A DNA stretch of 64,000 nt, taken from contig WFMF01000199.1 of NCBI GenBank assembly GCA_011033025.1, forward strand, positions 186,001 through 250,000. The letters run 5' to 3'. This document shows, piece after piece, positions 39,401 through 45,400 of this stretch. The DNA comes from Beroe forskalii. Lineage: Eukaryota > Ctenophora > Nuda > Beroida > Beroidae. The notes under the pieces are model-generated. The model made no database searches. It saw nothing but the letters and a program-made list of their open reading frames with translations, and was not told where the DNA came from. Position 1 is the first letter of the stretch. The number at the start of each line of letters is the position of its first letter. A program made the position numbers and the translations under genes.

Positions 39401-42400
39401 AACTCCAAGGTGAGCAATGCGAACTGAAATTTGACCGCCGCGTTCAATCGTACGGGATTTCATCGCATGGTTTCATTCTATACATATCTTTTTCATTATT
39501 CAGTATCTCTCGTATCATTTCCGACAAAAATATTCGGGCAACAGTAACGACATCGAAAGAAAGATTTTTATTAAAATTCCCGACTCCCGAATTGCGTGTA
39601 TACGTATTTCACGTTTATTTCAGTCATCTCTGATCACATATATTTCAATCATCCCTGAACACGTATATTTCAGTTATCCCTTATCACGTATTTCAGTTAT
39701 CCCTGAACACGTGTATTTCTGTTATCCCTGATCACGTATATTTCAGTTATCCCTGATCACGTATTTAAGTTATCTCTGATCACGTATATTTCACTTATTC
39801 CTGATCACGTATTTCAGTTATCTCTGACCACGTATATTTCAGTTATCCCTCGTCATGAGGACATTCAGATCCACCAACAGACTCCTGCTGACCGGTACTC
39901 CTCTACAAAACAACCTACACGAGCTGTGGGCTCTCCTCAACTTCCTCCTTCCGGACGTGTTTCGCTTCCTCAGATGTACGCTGTTTGTTTGTTTGTTTGT
40001 TTGTGTGTTTGTTTGTTTGTTTGTTTGTTTGTTTGTGTGTGTGTGTGTGTTTGTTTGTTTGTTTGTTTGTTTGTTTGTGTGTTTGTTTGTTTGTTTGTTT
40101 GTTTGTTTGTTTGTTTGTTTGTTTGTTTGTTTGTTTGTTGTTTGTTTGTTTGTTTATTTGTTTGCTTCCTCAGACGTACATTGTTTTTGAGACGGTTTAG
40201 TATTATCATGGACGCTCGCCAAGCTTACCGGGTCCCATCCGTTCTTGTCCATACTTTCGGCATTCATAGTTTCCTAAAGGCCTTTTTACGAAAGCGTTAT
40301 GCCATGATGATTTGTTATTGAGTTAGAGATCGTAGGTCCAGTCCCCGGCTAAATATTTCTCAATGTTTGTTTTTTTTGTCTTTTTTTGTTTAATGTTTGT
40401 TTGTTTGTTTATGTTTTTGTTCCTATTATTCTTTGATTAAGCTAAATTTATTGTTACCTTCGGGTTGATTTTGAGTTAACAAGGAAAAATATGCGACTTT
40501 GATAAATCGATTCACCATGTTAAACCATACATTATGACCGTGGTGTCTCGACCTTTTGAGGCGCGGCGTATTACGCCGCGCTTGGGTGCCCTTTTAATGC
40601 GCGTTTTATTGAATGTACTTTGCGCGCTGTCACGCGCAGCAAAACACTAAAACAGCACCTAGGCGTGGCGTAATACGCCGCGCCTCAAAAGGTCGAAAAC
40701 CTGGGTAATATCGATCGGCCCCCTCAGATGATTTCGACGAGTGGTTCAACTCCAACGACTGTCTGGAGGACGGTGGAATGGTCCAGAAGCTCCACAACGT
40801 CCTCCGACCCTTCCTCCTCCGTCGACTGAAGAGCGATGTGGAGAAGAGTTTACTGCCGAAGAAGGAAGTCAAGATTTGGGTGGGGATGAGCAAGATGCAG
40901 CGCGAATGGTGAGTGAGAGTGGTGTTCGCGGAATGGGAGTGGTGGGTGGGAGTGGGGAGCGCGTAGTGGTGGGTGAGGAGTGGTGTGAGTGGGGAGTGGG
41001 AATGAGCAAGATGCAGCGCGAGTGGTGATAAACGCTTCTTTCATGTGAAATTTTTATCTGGCCGCGCGCGGATAGTTTACCGTTTAATATCATGAGTTTT
41101 CAGGCCTCTTGATTACTTGATTAGTTCCAATTACGGTACATTTTTCAACTGGTTAAAGATGCCTCCTGCTTCAACTTACACAACTTAGATGCCCTGCTTC
41201 AGCTAACACAAATAATCTTTTACCAATAACATTTTGCAGGTACACTAAGATCCTGATGAAGGACATTGACACGATCAATGGGGCAGGAAACACGGCTAAA
41301 ACCCGTCTACTCAACATTCTGATGCAGCTGAGGAAGTGTTGTAACCACCCGTACCTCTTCGATGGGGCAGAACCAGGTGGGAAATAGTATAATCGCAGAG
41401 ATTCTTCATCACAGAGGTGAAGATTTTTTTCATTTCTCGGTGTCTTAAATATCGCGTTTTATCTATCGATCTATGTGCACACATATGGGTAACTAGGCCC
41501 CCGTTTTAACTCAGTCACAGTTGTGAAAGTTCCCTTTCGTCAGGCCCCCCGTACACAACGGACATGCACCTGGTAACTAACTCCGGCAAACTGGTGGTCC
41601 TGGACAAGCTCCTAATGCAGCTACAACAGAGGGGCTCACGGGTCCTTATCTTCTCTCAGGTACTCAGTTATTGGTTGAAAATGTTATCAGGTGCTTACTG
41701 ATTGGTTGAAAATGTTATCAGGTACTCACGAGGCTGATGGATATGTAGGAAATCGATTATGTAGTATTAACTTATTAACTATTTCGCTAAGTTTCCTTGT
41801 ATTTAACCCCCCTCCCCACTCAGATTACGAGGCTGATGGATATTCTGAGTTCCTTGTATTTAACCCCCTCCCCCACTCAGATGACGAGGCTGATGATATC
41901 CTGGATTTCCTCGTATTTAACCCCCTCCCCACTCAGATGACGAGGCTGATGGATATCCTGGATTTCCTTGTATTTAACCCCCTCCCCACTCAGATGACGA
42001 GGCTGATGGATATCCTGTATTTCCTTGTATTTAACCCCTCCCACTCAGATGACGAGGCTGATGGATATCCTGTATTTCCTTGTATTTAACCCCTCCCACT
42101 CAGATGACGAGGCTGATGGATATCCTGTATTTCCTCGTATTTAACCCCCTCCCCACTCAGATGACGAGGCTGATGGATATCCTGTATTTCCTTGTATTTA
42201 ACCCCCCTCCCACTCAGATGACGAGGCTGATGATATCCTGGATTTCCTTGTATTTAACCCCCTCCCCACTCAGATGACGAGGCTGATGGATATCCTGTAT
42301 TTCCTTGTATTTAACCCCCTCCCCACTCAGATGACGAGGCTGATGGATATCCTGAATTTCCTTGTATTTATCCCTTGTATTTAACCCCCTCCCCACTCAG

Positions 42401-45400
42401 ATGACAAGGCTGATGAATATCCTGAATTTCCTTGTATTTAACCCCCTCCCCACTCAGATGACGAGGCTGATGAATATCCTGAATTTCCTTGTATTTAATC
42501 CCCTCCCCACTCAGATGACGAGGCTGATGGATATCCTGTATTTCCTTGTATTTAACCCCCTCCCCACTCAGATGACGAGGCTGATGGATATCCTGTATTT
42601 CCTTGTATTTAACCCCCTCCCCACTCAGATGACGAGGCTGATGGATATTCTGGAGGATTACCTCATCTGGCGGGGATTCAAGTACTTCCGACTTGACGGT
42701 AGCACCGACCACGAGGAGAGACAGGCGAGTATAGATAAGGTGTCGTGACAACTTGAGAAGTGTTGCGACAACTTAGAGAAGTGTCGTGACAACTTAGAGA
42801 GGTGTCACGACAACTTAGAGAAGTGTCGTGACAACTTTGAGAAGTGTCGCGACAACATAGAGAAGTGTCGCGACAACTCAGAGAAGTGTCGCGACAACTA
42901 GAGAAGTGTCGCGACAACTTGTAGAAGTGTCGCAACAACTTAGAGAAGTGTCGCGACAACTTTAAGAAGTGTTGCGACAACTAAGAGAAGTGTCGAGTGT
43001 CGTGAAAACTTACAGAAGAGTCGCGACAAGATAGAGAAGTTTTGCAAGTTACGAAAACTGAAAATTATTTATGATTCTGAAATCACGTTGCAAATGCAAA
43101 TCTATCCCGATTTTTCACGTACGCTTCTATAATAATTTTTTATTGATTCGTCTTTTTTATGTCTGAGTATTTAAATCTTATCACTTATACATTGATTTTC
43201 ATTGAACCTCTTCCGTAGGAGACTCGCCTCTTTTTGTCAAAATTTAAGTAAAAATTATAAAAATTGTCAAAATATAATGAGTTGCTCTGCAGGCGAGTAT
43301 AGATAAGTTTAACGAGCCGGGGAGTGAGTACTTCTGTTACATGCTCTCCACACGGGCTGGCGGATTAGGTGGGTCCAAACTGGATTAAGTAAAACCTTCC
43401 AAAAAACATTGTTAGAGAAGTAAATTATAAAATGATAATGCCTTAGTGAATTTTTGTTATCGTTTTCGCGTTCTTTCGACACATCTTTTGATCGACTAAT
43501 GCGCACACATTTTTGATGCAATATAATACCAAATTATTGGTTGCCATTTTTACTGAGATTTCAACGTATCACAGGTATTAATCTGGCAACTGCTGACACT
43601 GTTATTCTTTACGACAGTGACTGGAATCCACAGATGGATCTTCAAGCTCAGGATCGATTAATTGTACCTTGAATTTATTTTCTGAGTTGCTGGTCTCGAA
43701 TTAAATTTCTCACCATAATTTTGAGGGCTCAGGCCTCAGAGCTTCTCGCCAGAAATTAATTTTATCCCCCTCCGGCAATAATCCATGAATTATTAATTAT
43801 CATGAAAATGCCTCAACTGTCAGCCATTTCCTTTTTATTTCTATTTTGAAATCATCCTCTAAACTATAATTTAACATTTATTATTTGACAGGATCGAGCC
43901 CATAGGATCGGGCAGAAGAAGCAGGTCGTAATCTACAGGTTCGTAACAGAAAACACGGTAGAGGAGCGGATCATTGAGAAAGCGGAGAGGAAACTGAAAC
44001 TCGATCACCTCGTGATTCAACAAGGTTCGTACCAGAGAACAGGTCCGGTTCTAGGACAAGGTAAGCTCCGGTTGGTTACTATAACAAGTCCGGTTCTAGC
44101 CCTGATTGGTTACCTTGATCCATCCGCCTTCTAGTAGAAGTGGTGGTTACTATAAAAAGTTGGAGAGTTGAAAACTGGAAATCCTATTGTTTATAGTGTG
44201 AATTTTTTGTTAGCTCCATTATCCATTTTAGGGGGTATGATAGAATCCAACGAAATTCGTTTTGAAACAATCTTCAGATGTCGATAAAGAAAATTATGAA
44301 CATTTTCTAGCAACAAAAAAGAATTTTAACTGCATTAATCCAGGTCTTCAAATTCGGGCATTTTACTAAATTTTTCTAACCATTTCATCTTCAGGTCGTC
44401 TGGTGGATAGCAATAACAAAGTTCAGAAGGAAGAAATGCTGTCTTGGATTAGGACTGGTGCAGATTTCATCTTCTCCGGAAAGGACAGGTCAAATTTGAT
44501 TTTATAATGTTGTAAATTTGAGTAGATTTGTGTGTTTCTTTCTTAAACCCAACTGAACCCTGTCCCCCTCCCCTGCTAAAATAGTAAAATAAGTCTTTTC
44601 CCCGTTCAAAAAAACGCCAATTTATGCATTTAACACCCTTCAGGTAGCAAGTTTAAAACGTTTAATGGTGCGAGAAAGTTTGAAAAATAGGACCTTCTAT
44701 TACACTCATTCCCATTTCCCGGAAAGGACAGCACAGTCACAGACGAGGATATCGAGGCTTTGGTGAGTCGTGGGGAGAAGAAAACGGAGGAGTTGAACAA
44801 ACAGCTGGAGGACAAAACGGAGGAAAACCTCAAAGGTTTCAGCATGGAAGATTCAGACTACACTCTCTACAACTTCGAGGGGGTTAACTACAAAGAGAAA
44901 CAGAAGATCTTCACCCACTGGATCGAACCCCCCAAACGGGAACGGAAAGCAAACTACCACGTCGACTCCTACTTCAGGTTGAGTATACTGAGTTCACGGA
45001 TCGGGTTGTTTTTAAACTTTACAACATTAATTTATACAATCAAATTCGAGACCTGAAGATGTCGTAGAACGACTAAATTGATTGTCATCAAAGAACCACA
45101 TCGTTTACATTTGTACTTGTACCATTTAGTCAATGAGTCAAAAGAGAATAAATAGTGTACTCATTGATCCTACTTCAGGGATGCTCTCCGGACTTCGGAA
45201 CCAAAGGCTCCCAAAGCCCCTCGGCCCCCAAAACAACCAAGCGTCCAAGATTTCCAGTTCTTCCCGCCCCGATTGTTCGAATTGCTCGATCAGGAGATTT
45301 ACTTTTACCGACAGCAGGTGAATAATAGCGTGTTCTTTTCTATGATTAAACTGATTTACAAAGTAGAGAAATCTTAATTATGACGATTTTTTATATCCAG

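Follow-up and report, generated by a model that had tools for sequence, protein, structure and literature searches.

How is the start of an exon chosen when the splice site that precedes it stands there fifteen times over? The question is raised by intron 11 of an ISWI gene of Beroe forskalii, contained in a 64,000-nucleotide stretch of DNA that we refer to as the window (positions 186001-250000 of contig C246, in an assembly of 216 Mb and 1134 contigs; coordinates below are those of the window). We observed directly the arrays of 3′ splice sites, their reading frames, their recurrence in other genes, their excess at acceptors in the sampled introns and a difference in array copy number between two paralogues. 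The explanation that we regard as probable is that minisatellites duplicate whole 3′ splice sites and are tolerated since each copy can work, with the occasional capture of a unit into the protein.

The acceptor array of intron 11

The 24-exon model of the gene gave a stop-free translation, and a second, purpose-written spliced aligner returned the same 23 introns, with borders that differed at introns 12 and 14 only. A Pfam search of the spliced 956-aa protein detected SNF2-rel_dom (3e-100), Helicase_C (9.1e-27), HAND (3.1e-27) and SLIDE (4.1e-45), and this combination of the SNF2 and C-terminal helicase lobes with HAND and SLIDE identifies the host gene as an ISWI (SMARCA1/5) remodeller. Intron 11 follows residue 420 (FSQ, by exon lengths) and lies within the Helicase_C match (397-510), so that splicing to an upstream acceptor would put extra residues into the second helicase lobe. 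The features of this region are as follows.

36794..48176, plus strand: modelled part of the ISWI gene, 24 exons and 23 introns (spliced alignment model)
41660..42628, plus strand: intron 11, which bears the array, 969 bp, phase 0
41792..42652, plus strand: array of 15 units with a period of 57 (Tandem Repeats Finder, TRF; copies aligned and scored)
42401..42628, plus strand: four upstream acceptor units (42401, 42458, 42515, 42572), in frame and open, 19 codons each
42629..42739, plus strand: exon 12 (37 residues), starting at the last array copy
41656..41729, plus strand: donor-side tandem repeat, 31 bp x 2.4 (TRF)
41729..41744, plus strand: degenerate copy of the exon 12 start (CGAGGCTGATGGATAT), near the donor (sequence match)

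A first-pass annotation of the window had described a 15-fold repeat of a mostly 57-bp unit holding a pyrimidine tract, CACTCAG and 24 exon bases, of which only the final copy continues into exon 12. Both statements were correct: the repeat was recovered by script and by TRF (15.0 copies, 88% matches, score 1298). Each unit runs from TTTAAC, which we take to be branch-site-like, through the pyrimidine tract and CACTCAG into the first 24 bases of exon 12. With its head-to-tail units of a size within the range of about 10-100 bp, the array is a minisatellite. The 15 acceptors, CTCAG/AT(G/T)AC with the slash at the junction, stand at 41824, 41881, 41937, 41994, 42049, 42104, 42161, 42218, 42274, 42331, 42401, 42458, 42515, 42572 and 42629, each reading CTCAG followed by ATGACGAGGCTGATG or a near variant. 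Nine of the 14 intervals between them measure 57 bp, two 56 bp, two 55 bp and one 70 bp. MTRLMDIL, which had been attributed to every unit, is exact in 10 of the 15 copies; copy 1 begins with I, copies 2 and 8 are one base short, and copies 11 and 12 read MTRLMNIL. A DNA search of the genome with the array sequence gave at least four matches, all on the same contig and inside the array; among the matches listed there was none outside this locus.

The list of acceptors agreed with the frames first proposed for the array. The last five starts, 42401 to 42629, are spaced by exactly 57 bp and the frame between them is open, while the copy at 42331, 70 bp from the next, breaks the frame. The insertion of 19, 38, 57 or 76 residues after FSQ, in the C-terminal helicase lobe, therefore stands as a set of possibilities given by the sequence. 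Acceptors 42104, 42161 and 42218 also lie at distances from the last copy that are divisible by 3, but they are blocked by stops, and 4 of the 14 upstream acceptors are consequently both in frame and open.

The strength of the sites was scored with a position matrix for which 72 acceptors from other genes in this genome served as the reference. The 15 array acceptors scored 10.5-13.2, with 13.0 for the true site and a reference median of 10.9. Over at least 32 nt on the upstream side and 15 nt on the downstream side, five of the 14 upstream copies have the same sequence as the true acceptor, and 10 score as high as the true acceptor or higher, so that local sequence alone is insufficient to pick the last copy. 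We infer that the choice must rest on position or on exon context. At the other end of the intron, the donor lies at the start of the 31-bp repeat listed above, and the two intron ends share only 5 nt of direct repeat in register.

Acceptor arrays in other genes

Introns were modelled in the ISWI, myosin, CCT, HSP90 and other SNF2 genes of the same assembly. From 200 aligned introns we kept 115 that had similarity on both sides and a length below 6000; the 115 introns used for TRF and for random placement are not quite the same set, as in them ISWI is represented by its hand-checked model of 23 introns and the CHD-type genes (CHDa and CHDb) by two introns defined by hand. The second aligner run covered 7 of the 12 myosin regions. 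The sample was drawn apart from SNF2 loci L049 and L050, in which there were no TRF rows, from L042, which entered a tblastn comparison only, and from L008, L009 and L047. An array was counted when its period was at least 10 and its copy number at least 2.5.

TRF arrays were found in 22 of the 115 introns, and they reached the acceptor in nine and the donor in two. When the 28 blocks were placed at random within their own introns, they hit the acceptor 3.6 times and the donor 3.7 times on average, and nine or more acceptor hits had P = 0.005. Besides intron 11, the acceptor arrays are the following.

ISWI intron 7, 39609..39850, plus strand: second acceptor array of the gene, 25 bp x 9.9, unit with TTTCAG/TTATCCCT (TRF; copies listed)
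CHDa: 34 bp x 56.5
CHDb: 51/52 bp, about 49 copies
BRM: 27 bp x 13.3
CCT3: 31 bp x 3.7
HSP90: 19 bp x 4.2
Myosins: 34 bp x 7.9 and 25 bp x 3.0

The unit of ISWI intron 7 matches the true junction, with the exon starting at 39843 and CAG kept in six of nine listed copies. A further array, of 42 bp x 17 with CACTTCCCCTGTATTTCAG, was seen at L038 (2603-3311), in a gene that looks SRCAP/EP400-like by eye; the exon that should follow this array was not found within the locus.

We defined a strong acceptor as YAG behind at least 9 pyrimidines in 12 positions. Such acceptors number 15 in ISWI intron 11, 4 in CCT3, 8 in the myosin on C225, 106 in CHDa, 50 in CHDb and 32 in BRM, and they occur at 2.56 per kb in other introns. 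A second exon start, taken as an AG behind which 11 or more of the first 12 bases of the exon match, was present in the exon's own intron in 3 of 115 cases (ISWI 11, CHDa and one myosin) and in 2 of 13110 pairings with other introns. A second exon end, taken as a match to 11 or more of the last 12 bases of the exon with GT behind it, was present in the own intron in 5 of 115 cases and in other introns in 2 of 13110 pairs. Two of the donor-side copies (11/12 bases each) are in ISWI:

40164..40175, plus strand: second copy of the end of exon 8, followed by GT, within intron 8
41013..41024, plus strand: second copy of the end of exon 9, followed by GT, within intron 9

A comparison of AG conservation across the array copies is dominated by a few shared variants.

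The recurrent arrays allowed us to ask whether such structures serve coding, one of the two roles first suggested for intron 11. Upstream acceptors that are in frame and open number 4 of 14 in ISWI intron 11, 0 of 6 in the myosin on C225, 1 of 54 in CHDa, 0 of 46 in CHDb (counted to the terminal copy) and 0 of 3 in CCT3. The nine periods (57, 25, 31, 27, 25, 34, 19, 34 and 51/52) are in general not multiples of three. The frames across the arrays otherwise look random and the class is not tuned for coding; the notion that the array exists for coding is not supported by these counts. The part of the isoform proposal that gains support is that array units may become coding, as the penultimate in-frame acceptors of the two CHD-type genes suggest.

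In CHDa the terminal copy reads CTCTG/TAT, with CTCTG in place of CCCAG and hence without an AG. The penultimate acceptor lies 33 nt upstream, in frame and open, and its use would add YFRTLTQLLSL (+11 residues). Units with CCCCTTTCAG/CTGTACGGTCC, which codes for the conserved LYGPFLLVVPLS, make up almost all of the 2.57-kb intron of CHDb. The terminal copy lacks one base, which places its acceptor out of frame with the phase-0 donor; the penultimate acceptor, 52 nt upstream, is in frame (+17 residues), and the last five upstream acceptors are all of a length that compensates for the missing base. Either array units have been captured in CHDa and CHDb, or a non-AG site is used, or the assembly is in error. 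One paper on human genes reportedly treats TG acceptors (PMC2374985). The aligner itself reported false exons within the CHD arrays.

On contig C558 there are two copies of CCT3 in inverted orientation (L035 and L043), about 36 kb apart, whose introns have diverged; aligned stretches are 84 to 97% identical, gaps included. The same intron has 4 acceptor units in one paralogue and 1 in the other, and array copy number thus changes over evolutionary time. The two copies were also compared for signs of selection on their donor-side repeats: intron 2 is nearly identical in both, and copy B carries a large deletion in intron 1.

Proposed origin and consequences of the arrays

The first unit of the intron 11 array suggests how it may have begun. 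Copy 1 keeps the exon's ATATTCTG, and copies 2-14 carry ATATCCTG. The right junction of copy 1, ATTCTG-AG-TTCCTTG, can be set beside ATTCTGGAG in the exon and CTAAG-TTTCCTTG in the left flank, and is intermediate between the two. A founding tandem duplication across the intron-exon border, joined at this 2-nt AG homology, would have created a second acceptor, and slippage or unequal exchange could then have expanded the units to 15. With sites of nearly equal strength, position would decide which one is spliced, probably to the advantage of the copies closest to the downstream donor. Use of an out-of-frame copy would yield nonsense transcripts, and use of the last four upstream copies would yield minor forms in which the second helicase lobe is longer by 19, 38, 57 or 76 residues. 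The array would be tolerated because, whatever its length, it still ends in an intact acceptor and the exon. Over time the effective acceptor could shift upstream and capture units, as the two CHD-type genes appear to show. Variation in protein length would then be a plausible by-product, best supported in those two genes.

A wider claim is put forward here as possible rather than probable. The arrays may form a standing class of 3′-splice-site satellites, built of interchangeable acceptors, along which the exon border walks, adding units to core proteins or dropping them; in two CHD remodellers the border would already lie one unit further upstream, and ISWI, with its four in-frame steps, could differ between animals.

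Several points weigh against the explanation by duplicated and tolerated splice sites. The acceptor enrichment is post hoc and comes from 28 blocks that include the focal array and the two hand-defined CHD introns. Strong acceptors number only 2 in ISWI intron 7 and 1 in HSP90 (the myosin on C580 is outside this count), the BRM and HSP90 arrays stop 2-3 nt before the border and have no exon copy, and the border of the myosin on C580 differs by 25 nt, one unit, between the two aligner runs. Errors of assembly could account for the terminal defects of the CHD arrays, and most readily for the homopolymer difference of one base in CHDb. The protein guides were human sequences, and the labels CHD and BRM come from tblastn and alignment to these guides rather than from domain analysis. 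The upstream ISWI copies are putative acceptors, predicted from the sequence.

Could selection have kept the array to insert variable numbers of 19-residue units and so tune ISWI? The exact 57-bp spacing of the last five copies, in frame and open, is what such an isoform generator would look like, and so are the units that appear captured in two CHD-type proteins. However, just 4 of 14 upstream copies are usable, the frames of the other arrays are chance-like, the inserted 19 residues would fall within the conserved Helicase_C match, and the copies bear frame-breaking deletions and D to N changes. We consider a selected generator unlikely at this locus. As the reason for the class of arrays, isoform generation was rejected on the frames; capture in single genes is possible.

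A regulatory decoy would use its acceptors to sequester splicing factors or to slow splicing, leading to decay and setting the level of ISWI. Fifteen near-equal acceptors, mostly out of frame or blocked by stops, would suit that role. The similar architecture in myosin, CCT3 and CHD genes, with other units and copy numbers, fits mutation better, and nothing in the analysis points to a dedicated decoy; we give this alternative little credence. Inflation of the array during assembly is improbable to a still greater degree. The array was found at one locus of the assembly only, among the matches listed, which would fit such an artefact, but the copies carry private variants and four different spacings, arrays with different units stand on other contigs, and each CCT3 paralogue has an array length of its own.

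If splice sites are duplicated by minisatellites in the way proposed, the arrays provide a natural test series of how splicing chooses among many equal acceptors at different distances. They also offer a route by which exon borders could move and proteins gain repeats without an intermediate loss of function. For gene annotation they are a hazard, since acceptor arrays can be misread as exons.

Direct repeats at intron borders and comparison with known systems

Duplicated junctions of another kind were observed in ISWI and beyond. Eight of the 23 ISWI introns have a direct repeat of at least 8 nt in register at the junction (18, 13, 12, 12, 9, 9, 9 and 8 nt), compared with 9 of 506 mismatched donor-acceptor pairs. 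Counting acceptor arrays, exon-end copies with GT and bracketing repeats together, 12 of the 23 ISWI introns have a duplicated junction. Three of the bracketed introns are listed here.

42722..43307, plus strand: intron 12, flanked by the 18-nt direct repeat CAGGCGAGTATAGATAAG (42722-42739 and 43290-43307)
43649..43897, plus strand: intron 14, flanked by CAGGATCGA, with a putative GA donor instead of GT
44476..44731, plus strand: intron 16, flanked by CCGGAAAGGACAG (44476-44488 and 44719-44731)

The 3′ end of exon 12 can be placed at 42724 or 42739 with identical mRNA. A 21-bp array of 12.6 copies (42732-42995) reaches the donor of intron 12, the borders of which can be read as GC-AG or GT-AG with the same mRNA. 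The candidate GA-AG borders of intron 14 are at 43652-43891 of the window.

Across the sample, bracketing repeats of at least 10 nt in register occurred in 12 of 115 introns and in 7 of 13110 mismatched pairs, and those of at least 8 nt in 17 of 115 introns and 72 of 13110 pairs. Without ISWI the counts at 10 nt or more were 8 of 94 introns and 4 of 8742 pairs. One of the 12 bracketed introns, in BRM, has a doubtful left exon and was kept in the count. The excess is uneven: at 8 nt or more, the first aligner run yielded 2 of 88 myosin introns and the second 1 of 44, and HSP90 gave 1 of 12.

Thirteen of the 115 introns had borders other than GT/GC-AG. The five best candidates are ISWI intron 14 (GA-AG), CCT6 introns 1 (GA-AG) and 3 (AT-AG), CCT3 intron 1 (AT-AG) and HSP90 intron 3 (GA-AG); in each of them both flanks show similarity at the protein level, and the direct repeat measures 8-11 nt. 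Outside ISWI they come from loci L033 (CCT6), L035 and L043 (CCT3) and L045 (HSP90). CCT3 intron 2, a CT-AG intron with a 19-nt repeat, failed the similarity filter and is outside the counts. The non-GT borders of CCT3 introns 1 and 2 are kept in both copies of the gene. The remaining odd borders belong to the BRM intron with the doubtful left exon, to a CHDa GA-AG intron with a 3-nt repeat and to six introns with non-AG acceptors, several of which we take to be misplaced by the aligner. Repeats of at least 8 nt are also found in 10 of 102 canonical introns, which together with the CHDa 3-nt case counts against a simple rule. Recent insertion, with duplication of the target site and relaxed donors, may explain the non-GT introns. 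If they are real, this would be a further animal genome in which the rules for the 5′ splice site are relaxed and introns have perhaps been gained recently.

A common mobile intron family was considered and rejected, as a comparison of 57 introns from six genes, on both strands, found at most eight 12-mers in common between any two. The intron 11 array is accordingly not an introner, no family having been found in this small sample and the focal sequence occurring at one locus among the matches listed. That a mobile introner-like element placed the units is hardly credible: the bracketing repeats at 10 nt or more do resemble target-site duplications, but the units contain the host exon's own start, no family was found and the focal sequence was nowhere else among the matches listed.

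The surroundings of the gene are repetitive as well. An inverted duplication flanks ISWI (33-36 kb and 53-56 kb) and carries a near-identical 121-residue open reading frame (ORF) at 35448-35813 (plus strand) and 53236-53601 (minus strand); ORFs neighbouring this pair recur too, and a Pfam search of four ORFs of the duplication gave no match. The 64-kb window is very rich in tandem repeats (103 TRF rows), and several units recur at distant sites, such as a 41-bp GGTACCATTTTTGTT type at 8, 19, 25 and 32 kb and a 143-bp unit at 23 and 57 kb. Ctenophores are known to be rich in tandem repeats, which make up 13% of the Hormiphora genome by TRF (PMC8527503).

The mitochondrial contig C1134 (13,339 bases) was also inspected. 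With TGA taken as tryptophan its COX1 is an open frame, and conserved residues favour mitochondrial code table 4. A Pfam search with 10 of the 11 ORFs of at least 100 aa detected COX1-3, cytochrome b, ND1 and two antiporter-type ND proteins; ATP6 had no Pfam match among these ten. Three of the ORFs gave no match, and two of them (368 and 313 aa) come after the ORF taken as ND5. The layout of the contig resembles the description of the Beroe forskalii mitochondrial genome (PMC6991124, section 16), and these features suggest a ctenophore.

The bracketed introns can be compared with four systems. Daphnia neointrons carry direct repeats at their two ends and, when young, repeats in their interior as well; their exon-shared repeats measure 4-12 bp, while those found here reach 18-19 nt, with some non-GT donors and with acceptor arrays in addition (PMC4202315). 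The non-canonical introns and introners of Amoebophrya have 3-5 nt direct repeats, inverted repeats and repeated families; non-canonical borders and direct repeats overlapping exon ends are common to both, but here the repeats are longer, the acceptors are AG in the best cases and there was no family among the compared introns (PMC7789003). In the tunicate Fritillaria many introns break the GT rule, AG/AC and AG/AT being most frequent, whereas here a minority are GA-AG or AT-AG candidates, the five best with 8-11 nt direct repeats (PMC13326754). Rogers and Bendich (2025) described direct repeats near intron borders in many taxa, with up to 80 bp searched; unlike in that work, only identity in register at the junction was counted here, against mismatched pairs (PMC11782384).

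For the arrays themselves, a search of titles and the beginnings of abstracts, with most subscription papers outside it, gave no acceptor arrays of this kind among the matches listed. The minisatellite of the human interferon-induced gene 6-16 (G1P3/IFI6) is said to contain repeated donor sites, its unit altering exon length. The minisatellite units carry a splice site both there and here, there reportedly a donor in one gene and here an acceptor in recurrent arrays. NAGNAG tandem acceptors are competing sites that give in-frame length variants, with selection against them in ordered parts of proteins (Hiller et al. 2008, PMC2279118). They resemble the ISWI array in that several acceptors compete at one exon. 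The intron 11 array is of a different class, its acceptors standing 55-70 bp apart, each with its own tract: NAGNAG sites shift the border by 3, 6 or 9 nt, whereas here whole modules of branch site, tract and AG recur every 57 bp, and elsewhere in the genome in up to about 56 copies.

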